From: Methanococcoides sp. AM1
GTDB taxonomy: Archaea; Halobacteriota; Methanosarcinia; Methanosarcinales; Methanosarcinaceae
Assembly: GCF_900774055.1 (NCBI RefSeq)
Contig: NZ_CAAGSW010000001.1
Span: forward strand, 203,797-267,796
DNA length: 64,000 nucleotides
Direction: 5' to 3'
Position numbers and translations under genes: made by a program. The notes beneath the pieces are model-generated. The model did not search any database. It was not told the DNA's origin and worked only from the letters and a program-made list of their open reading frames with translations. Of this stretch, positions 6,885 to 32,463 are shown piece after piece. Position 1 is the first letter of the stretch. Each line of letters begins with the position of its first letter.

Positions 6885-8096
6885 ATGGCTAACACTGACA
6901 GAAAAACAGATTCGGACCAAAGTGAAAAAGATATTACAGTACTTTCGGTTCCAGGCCTTACAATTGACCTGAAGCATCAGAACGGTTTTTTACAACTGGA
7001 AGCAAAAGGACATTTACGCGGTGTTTGCTCCCCTTTCCTGAAAAAGTTCAATTCCACCCTTCAAGCTGAAAAACCAGCCCTTGTTGAAAAAGACAGGGTC
7101 ATAGCATCCACATGGCTACCACCCATACCCGGAAAAGTATTCAAAAGGCTTCTTTTTGCAGAAACACAGATCGCACTTGGGAAATATATTCCTGAAACGG
7201 TGTCCTTTGAGATCACAAGGAACTGCAAGTGTAACTGCGACCACTGTTTGATCAGTGGTGGTGGTGGGGACCTCGATGTCGATACTGTGAAAAGGACCAT
7301 CGATGATGCCCTGGACATGGGCGCTGTTGTCATCACATTTACCGAAGGAGATCCCCTTCTTCGAGAAGATATATTCGAACTTATTGATTACGTTGACAAG
7401 GACCGTGCCATTGTCAACATGTATACACCTGGCACAAATATGACACCGGAAGTTGCTGAGAGGCTAAAAGAGGTCGGACTTCACAACCTTCTGGTGAGCA
7501 TATATTCCACTGTTCCTGAAGAACACGACGACGTACGAAAGCTGGAAGGCGCTTTTGAAAAAGCGACCAGTGCCATCAGATACGGACTCGATGCAGGGCT
7601 GCTAGTTACAATGTGCACCCACGTTTCCCCGAAGAACATGGAGAAACTGAAATCAATGTACCAGTTCGCAAAGGAGCTCGGAGTGCATGAGTTCTCATTG
7701 TGGGAATCCGTACCAAAGAAACCCGAAGACCCCGTGATCACAGATGAGGACCGGGAAGTCATAATGGAAATGTACCGCAGGATAAATGCCACCGAGGACG
7801 GACCCAGAATATTTGCAAATACGTACTTTGAAGGCGAGATGCTGGGATGCATGGCTGGCCAGCGCTGGTTGCATGTCTGCGTGGAAGGATCGGTCAAACC
7901 CTGTCCCTACATACCATTCAGTTTCGGGAACATCAAGACAGATGACCTCAGGACGATCTGGAGCAGGATACGCAAGGTCAGTGATTTTAAAGGAGAGAGG
8001 CACTCCTGCCTGATGCAGGAGAAAGATTACCTGAAGCTTGTATCGAAGATCCCCGAAGATGCAGAGGTCCCATACGACTTCGATCTTATCAGGTAA
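6885..8096 (+). CDS. Radical SAM protein with SPASM-like C-terminal cysteine region
   Basis: This 403-residue protein has the radical SAM cluster motif CKCNCDHC (about 111-118; C-x3-C-x2-C) after an N-terminal extension of about 100 residues. The GGGGD glycine-rich stretch, EGDPLLRED and an LVSIYS strand follow as in the SAM barrel. Near the C-terminus further cysteines (GCMAGQRWLHVCVEGSVKPCP, then HSCL) resemble a SPASM/twitch region that binds an auxiliary 4Fe-4S cluster. Substrate and pathway are unknown. The downstream genes are aminoacyl-tRNA synthetases and give no obvious context. It resembles the peptide- or heme-modifying branch of the superfamily, but I cannot place it. Confidence 0.85.
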   Translation: MANTDRKTDSDQSEKDITVLSVPGLTIDLKHQNGFLQLEAKGHLRGVCSPFLKKFNSTLQAEKPALVEKDRVIASTWLPPIPGKVFKRLLFAETQIALGKYIPETVSFEITRNCKCNCDHCLISGGGGDLDVDTVKRTIDDALDMGAVVITFTEGDPLLREDIFELIDYVDKDRAIVNMYTPGTNMTPEVAERLKEVGLHNLLVSIYSTVPEEHDDVRKLEGAFEKATSAIRYGLDAGLLVTMCTHVSPKNMEKLKSMYQFAKELGVHEFSLWESVPKKPEDPVITDEDREVIMEMYRRINATEDGPRIFANTYFEGEMLGCMAGQRWLHVCVEGSVKPCPYIPFSFGNIKTDDLRTIWSRIRKVSDFKGERHSCLMQEKDYLKLVSKIPEDAEVPYDFDLIR

Positions 8097-8164
8097 CCGA
8101 TATATACGTTCAGCTATTCAAGGATAATAACTAAATCTTAAGCGGAATTTGACAGAGGCAGCAC

Positions 8165-9463
8165 ATGAATATGAAACTTGACCCCTGGGGTTCAGTCAAT
8201 ATTGACGATTACTCAAAATTGTTCGATGAATTCGGCATCCTTCCATTCGAGGATATTTGCTCTGAACTCCCTGACCCACACAGGTACATGCGCAGGAAGA
8301 TAATCTTCGGGCACAGGAGCTATGACCTGATAACAGATGCAATGAAGAACAAGGATCCTTTTGCGGTCATGAGCGGGTTCATGCCAACCGGAGGCGGCCA
8401 TCTGGGACACAAGATGGTCATGGAAGAGATCATCTGGCACCAGAAAATGGGAGGTGGCGCGTTTGTGGGCATTGCAGACAGGGAAGCCTACTCCGTAAGG
8501 GGCGTTTCATGGGAAAAATGCCGTCAGATCGGAATTGAAGATTACATCGTAAGTCTTATAGCCCTTGGTTTTGAGCCAAACGGCCACATATACTTCCAGT
8601 CAGAATCCGATAACGTCAAGGAACTTACGTTCGAACTCGGCGCAAAGACCAACTTCTCCGAGCTAAGTGCCATCTATGGATTCAGTGGTGAGACAAGCGT
8701 GTCACACATGACAAGCACACTTTCACAGAGTGCGGATATACTCCAGCCACAGCTCTCAGAGTATGGTGGCCCAAAGCCTACGGTAATTCCAGTAGGTGCT
8801 GACCAGGACCCACACATGCGCCTGACACGTGGTATCGCACACAAGATGAACATGTTCAGGATCGAAGGACGTGAAGATAAGAACAAGGACAAATACTTCA
8901 GTGTTCGTAGCAAGGCTGCTCCTGAAGGTGCACTTGCAGATGTCGCGGAAAGACTGCCATGGGATACAAAGCTTTTCGAGGGACATGTCGATGTCTTCGG
9001 AGCTGATGACTATAACAAACTCCTGAATACTGTAAGGGAAGTTGAGATCGAATACGGAGGCTATGCTTTTGTGCCGCCTGCTTCTACTTACCACAGGTTC
9101 ATGTCAGGACTGCAGGGAGGTAAAATGTCCAGCAGTGTCCCTGAGAGTATCATTTCACTAAAGGAAGATCCAAAGGAAGCTGCAAAGAAGGTCAAACGTG
9201 CCAAGACCGGCGGCAGAATGACACTTGAAGAACAGAAGAAGCTTGGAGGAGATCCAAATAACTGTTCTGCCTTTGAACTCCTTATGTTCCACCTCGTCGA
9301 AGACGATAAGGAACTGGAAGAGATCTACGATGAATGTGTTTGCGGAAAACGTATGTGTGGCACCTGCAAAGCCCTTGCTGCAGAACTGATGACCGAATTC
9401 CTGACAGAACATCAGGAAAAGCGTGAGCTGGCAAAGGACCGGCTGGACGATTACGGATTATAA
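8165..9463 (+). CDS. trpS: Tryptophanyl-tRNA synthetase
   Basis: This 432-residue class I synthetase has the archaeal/eukaryal TrpRS features. The HIGH-equivalent [10 protein letters not shown] lies at about 76-85, [15 protein letters not shown] is present, and [12 protein letters not shown] (about 318-329) is the KMSKS loop. The archaeal-type MNMKLDPWG start has an alternative ATG at 8171. It charges tRNA-Trp. [12 protein letters not shown] cysteine cluster near residues 396-406 is present, as in many euryarchaeal TrpRS. pheS begins 23 bp downstream, so the two are probably co-transcribed. Confidence 0.96.
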
Positions 9464-9486
9464 ACCCAAAAAGGACCCTGACCGAC

Positions 9487-10974
9487 ATGAGCAACTATAA
9501 ACTTACTACGAATGAAAAAAATGTGCTGCTCGCACTGGATGAACTTGCATCCACCACCCCGGAAGATCTTGCAGAAAAAGCATCCATGAAAGTGGAAACT
9601 GCAATGCAATCCGCTTTTTTGCTCTCAGAGAACGGACTGGCAGAAGTAAATGATACAATTACTGAACTTTACGCACTGACAGAAGAAGGTCGTACCTATG
9701 CAAAGGAGGGACTTCCTGAGCGCCAGCTGATCAACGCGATCAGCGAACCGACAGCTATCGATGAGCTAAAAGAAAAGCTTTCACCAAAGATGGTGGGTAT
9801 CGCAACAGGATGGCTTCGCAGGAAAGGCTGGGCTAACATCGAGAACGGCATGATAGTCCCATCCGGTGATGCAGGAGAAGCAGAAGCAGAAGACGAAAAA
9901 GTGCTTGCAAGATTTACAAAGGAAGCACATACTATTGAAGAGCTTGAAACCGATAACAAGATCATAAAGGACCTTATCAAACGCAAGCTTGTTTCAAAGA
10001 CCGAAGAAAAGGACCGTAAAGTCTCTATCACAGATGCCGGAACCGAACTTGTGAAAGCAGGCATCACCATTGAAGAGGAGATCACACAGATCACATCCCA
10101 GCTATTGAAGAGCGGGGAATGGAAGAACAAGAACTTCAGGCCTTACAATATCCAGACACCTCCAAGACCGGTTTATGGTGCAAAAGTACATCCATACCAG
10201 CGCCTTATCGACCAGATGCGCCAGATCTTCCTTGAAATGGGATTCACCGAGATCAAAGGAGATGTCGTACAGAGCTCATTCTGGAACTTCGATGCACTGT
10301 TCCAGCCACAGGACCACCCTGCCAGAGAGATGCAGGACACGTTCCACCTGTCAAGCCGTTCAGAGCTTCCTGAAGACTACACTGACGGAATAAGGGACAT
10401 GCACGAACATGGTGGCGACCTCCAGTCCACCGGATGGGGAGGTAAGTGGAGTGAGGATATTGCAAAACGCGATGTATTGAGAACCCACACCACTGCTGTT
10501 ACTATCAAGTACCTTGCAGACAACCCGAACCCTCCGGTAAAGGCATTCTGTATTGACAGGGCATACCGCCGTGAGACCATCGATCCCACACACACACCCG
10601 AGTTCGAGCAGCTCGAAGGTGTGATCATGGACGAGAACATGTCATTTGCGAACCTGCTTGGCTGCCTTGAAGAGTTCTATCACAGGATGGGATTCGAGGA
10701 TGTCAGGTTCAGGCCGGGATACTTCCCATACACAGAACCAAGTGTGGAACCTGAAGTATACATTGACGGACTTGGCTGGGTAGAACTCGGTGGAGCCGGA
10801 GTGTTCCGTAAGGAAGTCACCGAACCTCTCGGTATCAAACAGCCTGTTCTTGCATGGGGTCTTGGTGTCAGCCGTGTGGCAATGCTCAAACTCGGACTCA
10901 AGGACCTGCGTGAACTGTACCAGGCAGACATCGAATGGTTACGCAAGAGCCAGGTGTGCCAGCTAAAAGATTGA
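9487..10974 (+). CDS. pheS: Phenylalanyl-tRNA synthetase alpha subunit
   Basis: The 495-residue protein has the archaeal/eukaryal PheRS-alpha layout. N-terminal winged-helix DNA-binding-like domains (about 1-200) precede the class II catalytic core, with [14 protein letters not shown], the [19 protein letters not shown] motif 2 region (about 274-292), and the motif 3 GAGVFRKEV...[13 protein letters not shown] near the end. It pairs with a beta subunit that is not in this window. It follows trpS after 23 bp and is followed by a clear terminator. Confidence 0.96.
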
Positions 10975-20917: not shown

Positions 20918-22081
<1,164 letters not shown>

Positions 22082-22448: not shown

Positions 22449-23399
22449 TTAATCAAAAAGATTAATAATTTCCTCCCCAAACTTTTTAGAGTCATATGTC
22501 ATTGTCCCCCTTGATGCTGGTTTCTCCAAACTTAAATCCGTACGAGATACAACATTCATGAACTTCGGAAGCTGGCATGATCCTAATGCTCTAAAGAATT
22601 CAGACCCACGTTCACATTCTGATAGTTTAAAATCGTCCATAATTTGTACATAGTTCATAAAATTATTGGGAGTTAATAAACTAGACAAATCTTGAACTTT
22701 ATCAAGAAGATCACCTTTTCCTAATTTTCTTTGTAGTTGAACTTTTCTATGCTTTAATTGTTTTTCTTTGACCCAAGAATGAGGATTTCTATCATTAAGT
22801 ATTTCTGATTCAAGCTTCACCATTTCTTTAACATAGTCTGGCACATTGGTATTAATTCGATCTGCTACATGCACTCTCGCAGTCATCGGAAATTCTTCAA
22901 TGTCAATTTCAGAAAATGCCATCCTCAGACCTTCTGGATTTTTTAATTGTGCGGACAATTCGTATTTCACTTTATCAGTTAATGGTTCTGGAGATGACCT
23001 AGTGTTAACTAGGCTTTTTAAGAAGCTATCATCCATACGATATGAAATTTCTACACTAAATAAATCAAACTTCAAAGCTGGCTTTAAATCTATAATGCAT
23101 CTGTCTTCTTTTTCATATACATTATCTTTTATAACTTCTGGAAAAGGAGAAAAACCAGTTGTTTTGATATCATAAACTTTTGATTTTGGTAATTCTAAAG
23201 TTCCATTTGTTAATCCATTCATCCATTTCGAAAATCTACCATCCACTTTCATATGAGTTGTATGAATTCCAAACCCATTCATGCACTCTAATCGTAAAGA
23301 ATTTTTTTTCTCTACATTCATTTTATTTGATACTTTTTCTGAAATATGCGCAAGTGAATTAAGATCTTTGATTGTCTTTAGTGCCATCAATTCAGTCAT
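22449..23399 (-). CDS. Unknown island protein B (316 residues)
   Basis: The start ATG at 23399 (TELMALKTI) is preferred because it overlaps the upstream gene's TGA by 8 bp; an in-frame start 51 bp upstream is less likely. The protein is mixed alpha/beta, lacks signal peptide and membrane helices, and has a Lys/Arg-rich helical segment (VKEKQLKHRKVQLQRKLGKGD, about 213-233). No family is recognised. Base composition is clearly more AT-rich than flanking genes, and the gene lies directly after tRNA-Gly. It forms a two-gene unit with the protein encoded at 23392-24414. Confidence 0.75.
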   Translation of the reverse strand: MTELMALKTIKDLNSLAHISEKVSNKMNVEKKNSLRLECMNGFGIHTTHMKVDGRFSKWMNGLTNGTLELPKSKVYDIKTTGFSPFPEVIKDNVYEKEDRCIIDLKPALKFDLFSVEISYRMDDSFLKSLVNTRSSPEPLTDKVKYELSAQLKNPEGLRMAFSEIDIEEFPMTARVHVADRINTNVPDYVKEMVKLESEILNDRNPHSWVKEKQLKHRKVQLQRKLGKGDLLDKVQDLSSLLTPNNFMNYVQIMDDFKLSECERGSEFFRALGSCQLPKFMNVVSRTDLSLEKPASRGTMTYDSKKFGEEIINLFD

Positions 23400-24414
23400 T
23401 TGAACACCTCCTAATGGACAATAAATCTCTAACTGATATGCTGGTGTCAATTTCAGAGTTTATTGTAGTCCTAATTTCAACTGGGTCCCCACACTCTTGA
23501 TTCAATAAATCAGTTGCATGTATTTTTATTGCAAGTTGACAAATTCCCTTATTAATTGTAACATTTAACAACGGATTCGAAAAGTATGCTTTATTAATTG
23601 AATACGTTTCAAAGTATTCATTTAATGGTTTTAGTACTAATTTTTCAAGGCTGTTTTGTTTGTAGAATATTGACATAAATAGAGTGATGAATGCATCTGC
23701 AAAATTTTCATCACTCATAGCCTTAGTTAATTTTTCATCTAAATCTTCAATATATTTTGTCATTGACATTTTTTCTTCATTTAATTCCAGCATCAAATCT
23801 ATAGTATTAGAATGACTTGGAAACTTTAACTTTAAATCAATTAGTCCCTCGTTAAATATATTTGTAATATTTTGGATTTCATCCTTTACATCTGAAGGCA
23901 TATCAACTATGCAATGATTGTCTTCTAATTCTTCAATATCAAAAAATACAGTTGTCTTACCTTGAAGCATTATCTCGATTTCATCACTAAGCATAGAATC
24001 ATCATCGATATAAATTACAGAAGGCACCTGAGATGCGTTTACAATAGTACTAAATATAGTACGCCTTTCATGAAAAGAATAAATTATTCTATTATCTTTA
24101 ATAAAATGGACTTTCAAGCTTCCAGGATGATAATAATCGTTAGTTGATTCTGTAGATAATATGCCTCCAAGGTATCCATCAACTTGAAAATCTCTGACAA
24201 TAATCTGATTATTTTCAAAAATTGCTTTGTTGATATCTGAATTGTGAATTTCGAGTAATGAATTAAATCCATCTATTTCAAGTTGAATTTCATCAGGATT
24301 ATCTCCATCCCACAATATAAAAAAAGGAACATCTTCTCCTTGTATGATATCATTAGCCAAAAAAACGTCACTGATTTTAGTGTCGTATTCAATGTTTTCT
24401 ATATCTTTTAGCAT
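23392..24414 (-). CDS. Unknown island protein A (340 residues)
   Basis: This acidic, beta-rich N-terminal half includes VPFFILWDGDNPDEIQLEI and HPGSLKVHFI, followed by a helical middle (about 180-260). No signal peptide, membrane segment or nucleotide-binding motif is visible, and no family is recognised. It is the first gene of a coupled pair with protein B. AT-rich DNA, codon usage unlike neighbours and tRNA linkage point to horizontal acquisition. An accessory or defence role is a guess based only on location. Confidence 0.75.
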   Translation of the reverse strand: MLKDIENIEYDTKISDVFLANDIIQGEDVPFFILWDGDNPDEIQLEIDGFNSLLEIHNSDINKAIFENNQIIVRDFQVDGYLGGILSTESTNDYYHPGSLKVHFIKDNRIIYSFHERRTIFSTIVNASQVPSVIYIDDDSMLSDEIEIMLQGKTTVFFDIEELEDNHCIVDMPSDVKDEIQNITNIFNEGLIDLKLKFPSHSNTIDLMLELNEEKMSMTKYIEDLDEKLTKAMSDENFADAFITLFMSIFYKQNSLEKLVLKPLNEYFETYSINKAYFSNPLLNVTINKGICQLAIKIHATDLLNQECGDPVEIRTTINSEIDTSISVRDLLSIRRCSND

Positions 24415-24641: not shown

Positions 24642-25904
24642 ATGGGGGAAATCACAACTAGCGAATTAGCTGAAAACCTGCACAATTATAAGATAATTGA
24701 TATCAGGCCTATCGATGCCTACAATGGCTGGAAGGAGCGGGGAGAGGCCAGAGGCGGGCACATAAAAGGTGCAAAGACGCTGCCTTACAAGTGGTTACAC
24801 TATATTGACTGGATAGAGATCGTCAGGAATAAAGGGATCCTGCCGGAAGATCCCCTGGTCATTTATGGGTATGACAGGCAGAAGACAGAAGAAGTGGCAA
24901 GGCAGTTTGGGAAAGCCGGCTACCCTGATGTAACTGTTTTTAACTTTTTTCTTGAATGGACGGAGAAAGGTCTGCCAATGGAGCATCTTGCAAGATATCG
25001 ACAGCTGGTCTCAGCGGACTGGCTTAACCGGTTGATAACCACAAATAACGCTCCTGAATATAGCAATAATAAGTTCGTTTTGTGTCATTCTCACTACAGG
25101 AGCCCTGCCGATTATGAGGAAGGACATATTCCGGGAGCAATATCCATTGACACGCTCTCTCTTGAATCTCAGGAAACATGGAATCGTCGCTCTCCTGAAG
25201 AAATAAAGGAAACCCTGGAAAGCGCGGGTATAACCCATGATACAACGGTCATTATCTATGGAAAGTTCTCTGCACCAAGTTATGATGATCCGTTCCCGGG
25301 AAGCAGCGCAGGCCATCTGGGTGCAATGAGATGCGCATTCATCATGCTTTATGCCGGTGTAAAAGATGTTCGCATACTTAATGGCGGACTTCAGTCATGG
25401 CTTGATTCAGGTTATGATATCACCCGGGAGTCTGCTGAGAATAATAAAGTGTCTTTTGGAGTTGAAATCCCTCAAAGACCGGAAATTATGGTTGATCTTG
25501 AAGAAGCAAAAGAGATCCTTTCTTCCCCTGACAAGAACCTGGTGTGTGTTAGAAGCTGGAGAGAATACATTGGGGAAGTGAGTGGGTACCACTACATTAA
25601 GAAGAAAGGAAGGATCCCGGGAGCGGTATTCGGGGATTGCGGAACAGATGCTTACCACATGGAAAACTACAGGAACCTTGACCACACCATGCGCGAAGCT
25701 CAGGAAGTTGCAGACATCTGGGAAGAGAGCGGGATCACTCCCGAAAAGCGCAATGCGTTCTACTGCGGAACCGGGTGGAGGGGAAGTGAAGCCTTCTTTA
25801 ACGCGTGGCTTATGGGCTGGGATAAAGCAGCGGTCTATGATGGCGGATGGTTTGAATGGAGCAACAACGATCTTCCTTTTGAAACAGGGGTCCCCGAACA
25901 ATGA
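24642..25904 (+). CDS. eanB: Three-rhodanese sulfurtransferase, probable EanB (hercynine to ergothioneine)
   Basis: This 420-residue cytosolic protein holds three rhodanese folds (about 1-115, 125-275 and 280-418). Only the last has an active-site loop with cysteine: YCGTGWRGSEA, Cys375. The first two have VIYGYDRQ and VIIYGKFSAP at the equivalent place, without cysteine. EanB of anaerobic ergothioneine synthesis is a rhodanese-family enzyme that puts sulfur on hercynine from a cysteine persulfide, and is encoded next to an EgtD-type methyltransferase. Here the EgtD homologue starts in a 4 bp overlap, and SufS and SufE follow. The specific EanB call rests on that context plus the loop sequence. 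Confidence 0.75.
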   Translation: MGEITTSELAENLHNYKIIDIRPIDAYNGWKERGEARGGHIKGAKTLPYKWLHYIDWIEIVRNKGILPEDPLVIYGYDRQKTEEVARQFGKAGYPDVTVFNFFLEWTEKGLPMEHLARYRQLVSADWLNRLITTNNAPEYSNNKFVLCHSHYRSPADYEEGHIPGAISIDTLSLESQETWNRRSPEEIKETLESAGITHDTTVIIYGKFSAPSYDDPFPGSSAGHLGAMRCAFIMLYAGVKDVRILNGGLQSWLDSGYDITRESAENNKVSFGVEIPQRPEIMVDLEEAKEILSSPDKNLVCVRSWREYIGEVSGYHYIKKKGRIPGAVFGDCGTDAYHMENYRNLDHTMREAQEVADIWEESGITPEKRNAFYCGTGWRGSEAFFNAWLMGWDKAAVYDGGWFEWSNNDLPFETGVPEQ

Positions 25905-26863
25905 TCATAGAAGATTTCATGCCACAGACAGGAGATAGCTCTATCAGGGAGAAACTTGCAGCCTGCCTGAGAGCAGATCCTAAAACACTTCCTTCAATGT
26001 TCTTCTACGACCATCATGGATCCGAATTGTATGAGAAGATCACTAAATTAGAAGAATACTATCCTCCAAAGATCGAGATCCCATTGCTCAGGTCAACTGC
26101 TCAAAAATTGAAACATGAGATGCAAGACTGCGATCTCGTAGAACTGGGAAGTGGGGACTGTTCGAAGATTTCAGTCTTCCTCGATGAAGTACCAAAAGAG
26201 ATCCGTCAGACCATCGTATATTATCCGGTTGACGTCTGCAAAGATTCCATCGAGAAATCTGCCTGTAATCTTCAGGATAAATATCCTGAAATGAAGATCC
26301 ATGGGATCACCGCTGATTTCCTTGAGCATATTGAGAAGATCCCGGGGAAAAGAAAACGGTTCTTCTGCTTCTTCGGAAGCACTATCGGTAATTTTACCGA
26401 GGCAAGGGCAATGGAATTCATGACCGATCTTGGCAAAGTCATGAATAAGAACGACAGGCTTCTCCTTGGAGTGGATATGGTAAAAGATATTGGCATCATT
26501 GAAAAAGCATACAATGATAGCAAGGGGATCACTGCAGAATTCAATAAGAATATATTGAATGTTACAAATGAACATCTTGAGACCGATTTCGACCCGGAGG
26601 AATTTGAACATGTTGCATTCTTCAACAGGGAATATTCCCGGATCGAGATGCACCTGAAGGCAAAGGACGATCTGGAAGTAGCAAGCCCCATTCTGGATGA
26701 GAAGATAATCCTCAAAAAAGGCGAGACCATCCACACAGAGAACTCTCACAAATACACTGTTGACGGCATCAAAAGAATGGCAGAGGCTGCCGGGCTTTCC
26801 GTAGAGAACATCTTTAGCGATGATAAAAAATGGTTCTCCCTTGTTGAAATGGTGAAAAGATGA
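25901..26863 (+). CDS. eanA: EgtD/EanA-type L-histidine N-alpha-methyltransferase
   Basis: The 320-residue protein has the PF10017 signature: FFYDHHGSELYEKIT and EEYYPPKIE (about 33-60), motif I LVELGSGDCSK (about 78-88), YYPVDVCKDSI, and FFGSTIGNF. The TENSHKY segment provides Glu280 and Ser282, matching the Glu/Ser pair that binds the histidine imidazole in mycobacterial EgtD. It would trimethylate histidine to hercynine. Overlaps of 4 bp on both sides (ATGA) couple it to the rhodanese gene before and the cysteine desulfurase after. Confidence 0.88.
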   Translation: MIIEDFMPQTGDSSIREKLAACLRADPKTLPSMFFYDHHGSELYEKITKLEEYYPPKIEIPLLRSTAQKLKHEMQDCDLVELGSGDCSKISVFLDEVPKEIRQTIVYYPVDVCKDSIEKSACNLQDKYPEMKIHGITADFLEHIEKIPGKRKRFFCFFGSTIGNFTEARAMEFMTDLGKVMNKNDRLLLGVDMVKDIGIIEKAYNDSKGITAEFNKNILNVTNEHLETDFDPEEFEHVAFFNREYSRIEMHLKAKDDLEVASPILDEKIILKKGETIHTENSHKYTVDGIKRMAEAAGLSVENIFSDDKKWFSLVEMVKR

Positions 26864-28041
26864 CAGATTTTGCAAAAGATTTCCCGATACTTTCACAAAA
26901 GGTGTACGGGAAAAGACTGGTCTATCTTGATAACGCAGCAACGACCCAGAAACCGGACTCTGTGATCGATACGATGTCTGATTTCTATAGGACAGATTAT
27001 AGTAATATCCACAGGGGTCTGCATTACCTGAGCGAGGTCTCAAGTGAAAGGTATGAGGAAGCACGAAAAAAGGTCAGTGACTTCATCGGTGCCCGCAACC
27101 CGAGTGAAGTGACATTCACTTCCGGAACCACCGGTTCCATTAATCAGGTCGCACGCTCGCTTGAGCCTTCCTTAAAAGGAAACGAAGTTCTGGTAACCGG
27201 TGTGGAACACCACTCAAATATCGTACCTTGGCAGCTTGCAGGAGCAAATGTAAAGGCAATCCCGATGGATGACGATTGCAAATCGCTGATAGACTCTATG
27301 GAGATCACGAACAAAACAAAATTGATAGCCATAGCTCATGTATCAAATGTTCTTGGTTCTGTAAACGAGATCAAAGAGATCACTGAGATTGCAAAGGATC
27401 ACGACATCCCGGTCCTTGTTGATGCAGCCCAGTCAATACAGCATTTGCCTCTTGATGTAAAAGAGATCGGTTGCGACTTTTTAGCTTTCTCAGGCCATAA
27501 GATGTATGCATCTACCGGTGTTGGAGTGCTTTATACAAGCGATCGCTTCAGTGATATTATGCCGGCAATAGGCGGAGGGGGCATGATCGATAAGGTAACT
27601 CTTGAAAGATCAACATACCTGGATCCTCCTTTGAGGTTTGAAGCAGGCACACCGGATATTGCAGGAGCAATAAGTATCGGTGCAGCAATTGACTACATGC
27701 AAAAAACAGGCATGAATAAAATAAAAAAGCATGAGCATGAGGTATATTCCTACGCCAGGGACAAACTGCTGGAAATAGATAATGTGACAGTTTATGGGAA
27801 TACCACCCAGATGTGCGGAGCTGTCTCATTCGATCTGGACAATATTCATCATTATGATACAGGATTGATCTTAGACAAGATGGGGGTTGCTGTCAGGACC
27901 GGACATCATTGTGCCCAGCCACTGATGAAATTCCTCGGGGTAGAAGGCACAGTGAGAGCAAGTTTTGCATTGTATAACACAAAAGAAGATGTTGACATGC
28001 TAATTGAAGGAATAAAGAAAGTAGAGATGATGTACAAGTGA
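26860..28041 (+). CDS. sufS: SufS-type cysteine desulfurase
   Basis: This 393-residue class V aminotransferase-fold enzyme has the PLP lysine Lys214 in SGHKMY and the group II catalytic cysteine Cys351 in RTGHHCAQP. VEHHSN and VDAAQS motifs are also intact. It makes a persulfide from cysteine and passes it to SufE. In this operon the likely final acceptor is the rhodanese encoded first. ATGA overlap with the EgtD homologue and GTGA overlap with sufE indicate a single translationally coupled unit. No SufBCD genes are adjacent, so Fe-S assembly is a less likely primary role. Confidence 0.93.
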   Translation: MTDFAKDFPILSQKVYGKRLVYLDNAATTQKPDSVIDTMSDFYRTDYSNIHRGLHYLSEVSSERYEEARKKVSDFIGARNPSEVTFTSGTTGSINQVARSLEPSLKGNEVLVTGVEHHSNIVPWQLAGANVKAIPMDDDCKSLIDSMEITNKTKLIAIAHVSNVLGSVNEIKEITEIAKDHDIPVLVDAAQSIQHLPLDVKEIGCDFLAFSGHKMYASTGVGVLYTSDRFSDIMPAIGGGGMIDKVTLERSTYLDPPLRFEAGTPDIAGAISIGAAIDYMQKTGMNKIKKHEHEVYSYARDKLLEIDNVTVYGNTTQMCGAVSFDLDNIHHYDTGLILDKMGVAVRTGHHCAQPLMKFLGVEGTVRASFALYNTKEDVDMLIEGIKKVEMMYK

Positions 28042-28454
28042 ACGATGCTATCCAGGATGAGATCATAGAACAATTTGACGGCCTTGAATGGTTTGACAAA
28101 TATGGTCTCCTTATTTCTTTTGCTAAAGAACTCGAACCGATGGATGAAGAATTTAAGGTGGAAGAAAATTCGATCAGCGGATGCCAGTCCAAAGTCTGGA
28201 TCAGAAGTTATACTGAAGATGGCAAATTGATCTTTGACCTCGATAGTGATGCGATGATAACTAAAGGGATAATTGCTCTTGTAGCTAAAGTAGTGAACAA
28301 TCGGTATCCTCAAGAAATATTAGATACTGATCTCTATTTTATTGACAAAATTGGATTGAAGTCAAATCTCTCTCCTGCGAGATCGAATGGACTGGAGTCG
28401 ATCATCACCAGGATAAAAGAGATTGCTGAAAAAGAAGCTAATTTGAAAAGTTAA
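28038..28454 (+). CDS. sufE: SufE-type sulfur acceptor
   Basis: The 138-residue protein has the SufE motif ISGCQSKVWI with acceptor Cys49, after the usual LISFAKEL and EEFKVEENSI segments. It accepts persulfide sulfur from SufS. GTG start overlapping the sufS TGA. It is the last gene of the four-gene sulfur operon. The final 20 residues are Lys/Glu rich. Confidence 0.9.
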   Translation: MNDAIQDEIIEQFDGLEWFDKYGLLISFAKELEPMDEEFKVEENSISGCQSKVWIRSYTEDGKLIFDLDSDAMITKGIIALVAKVVNNRYPQEILDTDLYFIDKIGLKSNLSPARSNGLESIITRIKEIAEKEANLKS

Positions 28455-28992: not shown

Positions 28993-30327
28993 ATCAAACT
29001 CATCACAATAATTGCTATATTTTTACTTTTGCTTGTTCTTGGCAGTTTCAATTCAACTGCATCAGACATAACACTTGAACCATCATCTCAGATCGTCACA
29101 ACCGGTGAAAACTTTACAGTGGATGTTTTTATTACACCGGATACTGCAATTGCAGGATTACAGTTCGATCTCGAGTTTGACAGCTCAAAAATACAGATAG
29201 ACAGCGTATCCGAAGGCAGATTCTTAAGCCAGAATGGGGCTTCAGCATTTTTCAACGAAGGAAACATAGACAACAATGCCGGAATACTTTCAGATGTTTA
29301 CGGGTCGATAATTGGCCCTTCAAGCATCTTAGGCCCTGAGTCATTTGCAATCATCACAATGAGTGTAAAGGACCAGGTTACAAGCACATCAACAATTAGT
29401 CTGAAAAATGTGATAGTAAGTGACCCATCAGGAAATCCTATAGATGTCTTGATCAATGATCTGACCCTGACCATTAACGAAGGACCTGTAGCAGTTGCCA
29501 ATGGGCCCTCCGAAGTTAATGAAGGTGATATATTATCTTTTGATGCCTCGGGTTCCTATGATCCGAATGGTGTTGAAATAACATCATATGAATGGGACTT
29601 CAGTGATGGAACAGCAGCATCCGGCCTGGAAGTCACACACGCTTATAAAAACAACGGCATCTATACGGCAACATTGACAGTAACCGATGATAAAGGTGCA
29701 TCTGCATCTGACACACTTACAGTAACGGTAAACAATGTTGCACCAGTTGTGGATGCAGGACCGGACCAGACAGCTAATGCAGGTAATGAAGTCCGTTTTT
29801 CAGGAAACTTTGATGATCCCGGAATTCTCGATACCCACATAATTTCATGGGACTTCGGAGATAGTGAAATTGCAGAAAGTGCATTAACACCTGCTCACAC
29901 TTATGCTGATAAAGGTGTTTATAACGTGATCCTGACCATAACTGATAATGATGGTGCATCTACATCAGATACAGCAACGGTCACAGTGGCAGCACCTGAG
30001 ATCAACACCATTTCTATTGACAGCACCAACATGTCAGTTGTGGAAAACTACAATTTCTGGAAATGGACCCGGATATACGCCACAGCAGAAGTAAAGATTG
30101 TTGATTCCACCGGCAGTCCTATCGATGGTGTAGTAGTCTCCGGCCAGTGGAGTGGTACGACCAGCGATAGTGATTCCGGAGTAACTGACAGCAATGGAAA
30201 GGTTACTGTAGACTCAAAGAAAGTGTGGGGATCCGGACCAAGAACATTTACCTTTACGGTAGACGGCGTTTCCCATAACATCCAATGGGACGGCGAGACA
30301 AGATCCGGCACGATCACATATCAGTGA
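28993..30327 (+). CDS. Secreted cohesin-like / PKD-repeat protein, apparently starting at ATC
   Basis: From ATC 28993 the product has 444 residues. A signal peptide (Lys then about 15 hydrophobic residues, cleavage near STASD) leads into a cohesin-like beta domain (about 25-160; FTVDVFITPDTAIAGLQFDLEFDSS). Two PKD domains follow (about 162-245 and 248-335) with the WDFSDG and WDFGDS motifs. A C-terminal Ig-like domain (about 345-444) completes it. No membrane anchor or sorting motif is visible at the C-terminus. It is probably a cell-surface or extracellular adhesion or complex-forming protein. No dockerin was seen in the window. Confidence 0.85.
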   Translation: MKLITIIAIFLLLLVLGSFNSTASDITLEPSSQIVTTGENFTVDVFITPDTAIAGLQFDLEFDSSKIQIDSVSEGRFLSQNGASAFFNEGNIDNNAGILSDVYGSIIGPSSILGPESFAIITMSVKDQVTSTSTISLKNVIVSDPSGNPIDVLINDLTLTINEGPVAVANGPSEVNEGDILSFDASGSYDPNGVEITSYEWDFSDGTAASGLEVTHAYKNNGIYTATLTVTDDKGASASDTLTVTVNNVAPVVDAGPDQTANAGNEVRFSGNFDDPGILDTHIISWDFGDSEIAESALTPAHTYADKGVYNVILTITDNDGASTSDTATVTVAAPEINTISIDSTNMSVVENYNFWKWTRIYATAEVKIVDSTGSPIDGVVVSGQWSGTTSDSDSGVTDSNGKVTVDSKKVWGSGPRTFTFTVDGVSHNIQWDGETRSGTITYQ

Positions 30328-31200: not shown

Positions 31201-32463
31201 ATGACATCCAAACAAACGGCACTGGCAATCTTGCTTCTAGCATTCGCATTAACGTGCATCGGCTGCATCGAAAATACACAGGCAGACCCTGATACCACCA
31301 TAAATGCGCAATCTGTTGAGGAATATGACCTTGCTGCTGCGAACAATGCTTTTGCCTTTGACCTGTACTCTGAATTACAGGAAGGCAAGGATGGGAACAT
31401 GCTCATTTCTCCTTACAGTATCTTCACTGCAATGGCTATCTGTTATGAGGGTGCTGAGGGAACTACACAACAGCAAATGGCAGAGGTACTTTATTATCCG
31501 CTTGACAGGTCTGTCATGAGACTGAGCGCCAAAGAGTATATCGATACCGTGAACCGGAATTCCGATGACTATGAACTAAAAACTGCAAATGCAATCTGGT
31601 TACGGGAGGACCAGCAGCTTGTAGCTGACTATGAAAATAACATAGAGGAATATTACAATGGGAACGTCGATAAACTCGATTTTGAAGGGGAGCCTGAAGA
31701 GTCTGCAAAAACAATTAATGAGTGGGTCGAAGAACAGACCAACAACAAGATAAAAGACATAATCGACGGGCAGTCATTTGACGGGTATACCAAACTCGTG
31801 GTCACAAATGCTATTTATTTCAATGGAAGGTGGCAGGAGGACTTCGTGGAATTCAGGACGAACAAAGAACCTTTCCACCTGACAGAGGGTGAGGAGATCC
31901 AGGTGGACATGATGTATGATCAAAGAAAAGCCAGTTACGGGGAAACCCCGGAAGCAAAGATACTGGAACTTCCATACAAAGGGAATGACCTTTCAATGTA
32001 TGTTGTACTCCCGAATGAGAACAACATCGACAATTTTGAAAGCACTTTCACGGTCAACAACTACGATAAGCTCAAAAGGGGAATGAGTGATGAATATGAT
32101 GTCAGGATATGGCTGCCAAAATTCAAATTCCAGACAAAAGAAAAGCTTTCATACCCACTCGTAAAAATGGGATTAACTGATGCTTTCTATGATTTTGGTT
32201 TTACAGGAATAACTGAAGAGACGGACCTGACCATTTCAGAAGTGATCCACCAGACTTATATCGACGTGCAAGAAAAGGGAACAGAAGCCGCTGCTGCAAC
32301 AGCCGTTGAAGCAGTAGACTGTGCCATAGTCGATGAGCCGGTCATAAAAGAGTTCAAGGCAGACCACCCATTCATGTTCTTCATCGAAGACAAAAGAACC
32401 GGATGTATCCTTTTCATGGGGAAGGTTGAACACCCTGAGTACGATCAGGTTGCAACAGCATGA
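31201..32463 (+). CDS. Serpin-family protease inhibitor, probable lipoprotein
   Basis: This 420-residue protein has an N-terminal hydrophobic leader ending in a lipobox-like TCIGC (Cys near residue 22), so it is probably secreted and membrane-tethered. A complete serpin fold follows: NMLISPYSI, AICYEGAEGTTQQQM, TNAIYFNGRW, and the hinge EKGTEAAAATAV (about 359-370) with small residues typical of inhibitory serpins. The fold ends with HPFMFFIEDKRTG and ILFMGKVEHP. The reactive bond lies in the stretch AVDCAIVDEP after the hinge, but I cannot fix P1. Serpins are sporadic in archaea and this gene sits among other accessory surface genes. Confidence 0.92.
   Translation: MTSKQTALAILLLAFALTCIGCIENTQADPDTTINAQSVEEYDLAAANNAFAFDLYSELQEGKDGNMLISPYSIFTAMAICYEGAEGTTQQQMAEVLYYPLDRSVMRLSAKEYIDTVNRNSDDYELKTANAIWLREDQQLVADYENNIEEYYNGNVDKLDFEGEPEESAKTINEWVEEQTNNKIKDIIDGQSFDGYTKLVVTNAIYFNGRWQEDFVEFRTNKEPFHLTEGEEIQVDMMYDQRKASYGETPEAKILELPYKGNDLSMYVVLPNENNIDNFESTFTVNNYDKLKRGMSDEYDVRIWLPKFKFQTKEKLSYPLVKMGLTDAFYDFGFTGITEETDLTISEVIHQTYIDVQEKGTEAAAATAVEAVDCAIVDEPVIKEFKADHPFMFFIEDKRTGCILFMGKVEHPEYDQVATA

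Follow-up and report, generated by a model that had tools for sequence, protein, structure and literature searches.

An operon of Methanococcoides sp. AM1 probably encodes oxygen-independent ergothioneine synthesis together with a dedicated SufS/SufE sulfur-supply pair

Introduction

The source of the sulfur that EanB, the synthase of the antioxidant ergothioneine, transfers has been disputed: the Chlorobium limicola enzyme was at first fed with IscS and cysteine, and polysulfide was later shown to be its direct donor, a change of view that its buried cysteine helped to bring about (review, PMC9103826). This question is raised again by a stretch of 64,000 nucleotides (hereafter the window) from the methylotrophic methanogen Methanococcoides sp. 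AM1 (contig NZ_CAAGSW010000001.1, positions 203,797 to 267,796 of the forward strand), in which genes for a three-rhodanese protein, an EgtD-family methyltransferase, a cysteine desulfurase and a SufE protein follow one another. Here we ask whether these genes form one pathway and whether the last two supply its sulfur. Our analysis indicates that the locus is probably a complete operon for ergothioneine synthesis without oxygen, with SufS and SufE as a dedicated sulfur-supply pair.

Results and Discussion

The genome containing the window (2.48 Mb in 46 contigs) is 99.9% complete. The original prediction, made from the DNA letters, had described four genes whose starts overlap the preceding stops by 4 base pairs, and all four open reading frames were found at 24642-28454 (+) with such junctions:

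24642..25904 (+): eanB, 420 amino acids, predicted three-rhodanese ergothioneine synthase (phmmer, tree, structure match)
25901..25904 (+): eanB/eanA overlap, ATGA, 4 base pairs
25901..26863 (+): eanA, 320 amino acids, EgtD-family histidine N-alpha-methyltransferase (TIGR03438, pocket residues)
26860-26863 (+): eanA/sufS overlap, ATGA, 4 base pairs
26860..28041 (+): sufS-type cysteine desulfurase of the EanB-linked clade, 393 amino acids (TIGR01979, tree)
28038-28041 (+): sufS/sufE overlap, GTGA, 4 base pairs
28038..28454 (+): sufE-type sulfur acceptor of the EanB-linked clade, 138 amino acids, GTG start (PF02657, tree)

A Pfam scan of the four proteins returned three rhodanese stretches, a histidine-specific methyltransferase, a class-V aminotransferase and SufE. 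The overlaps are consistent with translational coupling, and the eanB and eanA coordinates abut likewise in most Methanosarcinaceae operons.

The product of the first gene is 61% identical to the crystallised C. limicola EanB and about 41% identical to YnjE. When it was compared with solved structures by phmmer, the best matches were all C. limicola EanB (6ktv, 7.6e-175), followed by YnjE (8e-85). Whether the protein would fall with thiosulfate sulfurtransferases had been set as a test of the prediction; in a careful tree that set the window protein among 46 further EanB-like and five YnjE-type proteins, it grouped with C. limicola EanB at 100/99 and apart from YnjE, although the bootstrap was not quite settled. 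An AlphaFold model (predicted local distance difference test score, pLDDT, 88) retrieved EanB first in a structure search (6h98, E 1.7e-56, 59% identity), with the hercynine-bound form among the matches and YnjE well behind (E 4.9e-38, 37% identity). The alignment that had been proposed as a check matched Cys375, Tyr316, Thr377 and Arg380 of the window protein to Cys412, Tyr353, Thr414 and Arg417 of C. limicola EanB, and equivalents of these four residues were invariant in 86 homologues. Cys375 is the predicted persulfide-carrying cysteine; it lies in the loop YCGTGWRGSEA, which had been described as intact and is present. This loop was rejected as proof of EanB: FYCGTGWR occurs in E. coli YnjE as well, along with the tyrosine, so that the loop alone is not diagnostic. 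The whole catalytic set, found in YnjE too, is necessary but not sufficient for membership, and it is the whole-length similarity together with the tree, not the loop, that assigns the protein, by prediction, to EanB. Residues 335-349 (25644-25688; DAYHMENYRN) are among the most conserved EanB stretches, yet they were modelled with a pLDDT under 50; as a speculation, they could form a mobile lid over the active site.

The second protein matched the Pfam histidine-specific methyltransferase family at 2.7e-105 and exceeded the NCBIfam egtD equivalog cut-off (TIGR03438, 349.4 bits against 290.9). Its six histidine-pocket residues, Y53, N164, Y204, M250, E280 and S282, match those of M. smegmatis EgtD (Y56, N166, Y206, M252, E282 and S284) and are identical in 25 relatives. 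The Glu280/Ser282 pair, which had already been singled out as a mark of an EgtD-family enzyme, aligns with Glu282/Ser284 of EgtD.

The names SufS and SufE given to the last two genes were also borne out. SufS passed the TIGR01979 cut-off (509 against 475 bits) and keeps the equivalents of E. coli K226, C364, H123 and R379, with the pyridoxal phosphate lysine and the persulfide cysteine intact. SufE was recognised by its domain (PF02657, 2.7e-41, 140.6 bits) and scored below the NCBIfam SufE/CsdE equivalog cut-offs. It is the single SufE copy in the genome, and its Cys49 corresponds to E. coli Cys51, a cysteine kept in 25 of 25 EanB-linked SufE proteins. A second, core SufS lies at 7465-8643 (-) in locus L057, divergent beside genes for YcaO (9000-10280, +) and TfuA (10285-10935, +). 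YcaO-TfuA thioamidates methyl-coenzyme M reductase, and this core paralog may be its sulfur source.

The distribution of the genes indicated that the pair belongs to EanB. Among 393 genomes searched in the phylum Halobacteriota, the order eanB-eanA-sufS-sufE was contiguous and identical in all 23 that carry EanB (four genera), counts that overstate independence because these genomes all belong to one family, although presence and absence still vary within genera. Given this identity of gene order in 23 of 23 genomes, the arrangement is far beyond chance. SufE itself passed the cut-off in only 24 of the 393 genomes, namely the 23 with EanB and one (G373) in which EanA-SufS-SufE reaches a contig end; within the phylum it was never found apart from this operon. 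In another genome (G055) a sub-threshold SufE piece at a contig start precedes YdjM-like and serpin-like genes, the same neighbours that the window shows. Within these genera, genomes without EanB had neither SufE nor the operon-type SufS, their only SufS being a core form of about 37-44% identity.

The arrangement was also found outside the phylum, mostly in metagenome-assembled genomes. The same four genes occur in order in Thermoplasmata (L086, with L081 and G1034 interrupted by contig ends) and in six bacterial phyla (Omnitrophota, Aminicenantes, Phycisphaerae, Syntrophomonadaceae, Elusimicrobia and Fibrobacter), while eanB-sufE occurs in Caldithrix, Ignavibacteria and Gemmatimonadetes, and eanB-sufS-sufE in one member of the Ignavibacteria. 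Where SufE adjoins EanB it is the only SufE of the genome in 16 of 17 cases. Within the class to which an Ignavibacteriales genome belongs, SufE was present in 8/8 genomes with EanB as compared to 89/245 overall (p = 2.5e-4, a value that ignores relatedness). The idea that SufE is specific to EanB in all archaea was rejected, as many Thermoplasmatota genomes carry an ordinary SufS-SufE pair. A quick tree had also hinted that the four-gene operon was the ancestral EanB arrangement, an idea that was dropped because the careful tree does not settle the root of EanB. Additionally, six eanB-sufE pairs (L074, L078, L079, L080, L104 and L111) had no eanA match in the surrounding DNA; for these, either eanA is located in another part of the genome or EanB uses a different substrate.

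Furthermore, the proteins of the pair are distinct in sequence. All 19 EanB-linked SufS grouped in one clade (100/98) to the exclusion of 33 other SufS, some of them from the same genomes, and they remained one clade after 27 extra outgroup rows, mostly from Omnitrophota, were added (Shimodaira-Hasegawa-like approximate likelihood ratio test, SH-aLRT, 93). The 25 EanB-adjacent SufE likewise all fell into a single clade (100/100) that excludes housekeeping SUF proteins. On addition of Thermoplasmatota SufE, one further sequence alone, L324, joined this clade (100/99), and it was found beside SufS and EanA; because no sequence other than SufE had entered the tree, its placement tests the link independently. 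The separate clades, together with the neighbours of L324, indicate a dedicated SufS/SufE subfamily for EanB. The proposal that the two proteins are a dedicated sulfur supply was thus strengthened by strict co-occurrence, by linkage repeated across phyla and by distinct clades.

According to these data, the operon very probably makes ergothioneine, as far as sequence can tell. EanA would trimethylate histidine to hercynine, SufS would move sulfur from cysteine onto its own active-site cysteine and SufE would take it on Cys49, from where it would reach Cys375 of EanB, either directly or on a very short-lived carrier, and then be placed on the imidazole C2 of hercynine, yielding ergothioneine. 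The transfer from SufS to SufE is established in E. coli and the persulfide chemistry of EanB in C. limicola; what this organism makes, and the step from SufE to EanB, we infer. Transfer from a desulfurase to a rhodanese has been shown elsewhere by a desulfurase-rhodanese fusion and by the ABA3-STR18 pair (PMC8931425).

Several observations weigh against such a relay. In vitro, polysulfide is the direct and best donor of C. limicola EanB, the role of IscS has been reinterpreted, and Cys412 lies at the bottom of a tunnel 13 angstrom long, argued to be out of reach of IscS (PMC9103826); SufE would meet the same obstacle unless the tunnel opens. In addition, the EanB loci of Bacteroidota and Chlorobi mostly have no linked SufS/SufE, and this applies to the group of the characterised enzyme too; a linked pair is thus dispensable for EanB. 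SufE was encoded elsewhere in six of seven tested Bacteroidota genomes of this kind; the exception, G414, showed neither SufE nor SufS, in a genome that may be incomplete. The polysulfide and tunnel findings favour the alternative that SufS and SufE serve EanB indirectly, with polysulfide or a small-molecule persulfide (e.g. on coenzyme M) entering the tunnel and no transfer between proteins. We consider this unlikely, although it is the alternative we take most seriously. SufE shields a persulfide and hands the sulfur to a protein, and a pure generator of polysulfide would have no need of a distinct SufE subfamily beside EanB, kept even where SufS is unlinked. In this regard, the SseA/Rv3284 system of M. 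tuberculosis provides a precedent, since a SufE-like protein binds and activates the neighbouring rhodanese-type SseA, although SseA is a thiosulfate sulfurtransferase without a described ergothioneine role, unlike EanB (PMC12375888). Beyond this organism, we tentatively suggest, with slightly less than even confidence, that the relay from SufS through SufE to EanB could be the physiological sulfur source for anaerobic ergothioneine synthesis in most anaerobes outside Bacteroidota/Chlorobi and could have moved between archaea and bacteria as one unit, with polysulfide serving as an in vitro or lineage-specific substitute.

The product could also be another C2-thiolated histidine derivative, since related enzymes may act on other heterocycles, as Leisinger 2019 reportedly suggested. 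The conservation of all six EgtD pocket residues in EanA, and the closeness of EanB to an enzyme whose crystal structure contains hercynine, and whose cysteine, tyrosine, threonine and arginine are all kept, make this improbable.

Very improbable, in turn, is a reading of the two last genes as an iron-sulfur assembly module that is merely co-transcribed. The pair is homologous to that of E. coli SUF, with which it has enzyme types and catalytic residues in common, and SufB is encoded in the genome. However, SufB lies on another contig and no scaffold gene (SufB/SufC/SufD) was found near the operon; unlike the E. coli pair, SufS and SufE here stand without SufBCD, in clades of their own and linked to EanB. 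Furthermore, genomes without EanB have no SufE and evidently make iron-sulfur clusters regardless. As the window genome also has IscS beside a NifU-like gene (L058), in addition to SufB, its cluster assembly has other sources. Lastly, hardly any credence is due to a reading of the rhodanese protein as a general sulfurtransferase of the YnjE type: YnjE shares the catalytic loop and tyrosine and comes second after EanB among solved structures, but tree and identity separate the two, and EanB of this family always adjoins EanA.

The operon resembles known systems in part. Both enzymes of C. limicola (Clim_1148/Clim_1149) have their counterparts here with catalytic residues kept and, for EanB, similarity over the whole length; what differs is the linked SufS and SufE, none of which was seen in the C. 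limicola EanB group, a comparison made for the group and not for the record of that strain. MES of Caldithrix abyssi is likewise anaerobic and fed from cysteine by a desulfurase through a proposed persulfide relay, but it is a single fusion of a molybdopterin domain with a NifS/IscS-like desulfurase, whereas the window has a rhodanese synthase with separate SufS and SufE (PMC9516567). The window SufS is accordingly a free protein of 393 amino acids in which Pfam and NCBIfam found no metallopterin domain. The original prediction had held that a supply pair joined to EanA and EanB would be a notable addition. EanA and EanB of Methanococcoides vulcani (SAMN04488587_0183/_0184), encoded by orthologous genes, have already been noted, in a passage that names only these two enzymes and leaves SufE unmentioned (PMC7278568). 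The SufS/SufE half, with its dedicated subfamily, appears to be new: EanB together with SufE had no mention in the literature searched, although supplements of the primary EanB papers may show neighbouring genes.

Several other features flank the operon. Upstream, a SepSecS-family pyridoxal phosphate protein is encoded at 20927-22081 (+); such genes in methanogens are usually SepCysS, for tRNA-dependent cysteine synthesis. Between a tRNA-Gly gene and the operon, a low-GC stretch (34%) at 22449-24414 (-) contains two overlapping open reading frames of 333 and 340 amino acids, which had no match in Pfam, NCBIfam or PADLOC and possibly form a small island. In an Rfam search, tRNA was the sole match. 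Downstream, a full-length serpin, in a methanogen, is encoded at 31201-32463 (+) (Pfam 3.9e-116), near a PKD/cohesin-like protein at 29029-30327.

Conclusions

That EanB is accompanied, in archaea and in many phyla of bacteria, by a particular SufS/SufE subfamily suggests that a specific protein donates the sulfur, and three purified proteins would suffice to put the question of the donor to the test. This association also provides a gene signature for finding oxygen-free ergothioneine producers. In addition, the operon offers an archaeal case in which SufE probably serves the synthesis of a small molecule and not iron-sulfur assembly, and a counterpart to MES with its fused desulfurase.

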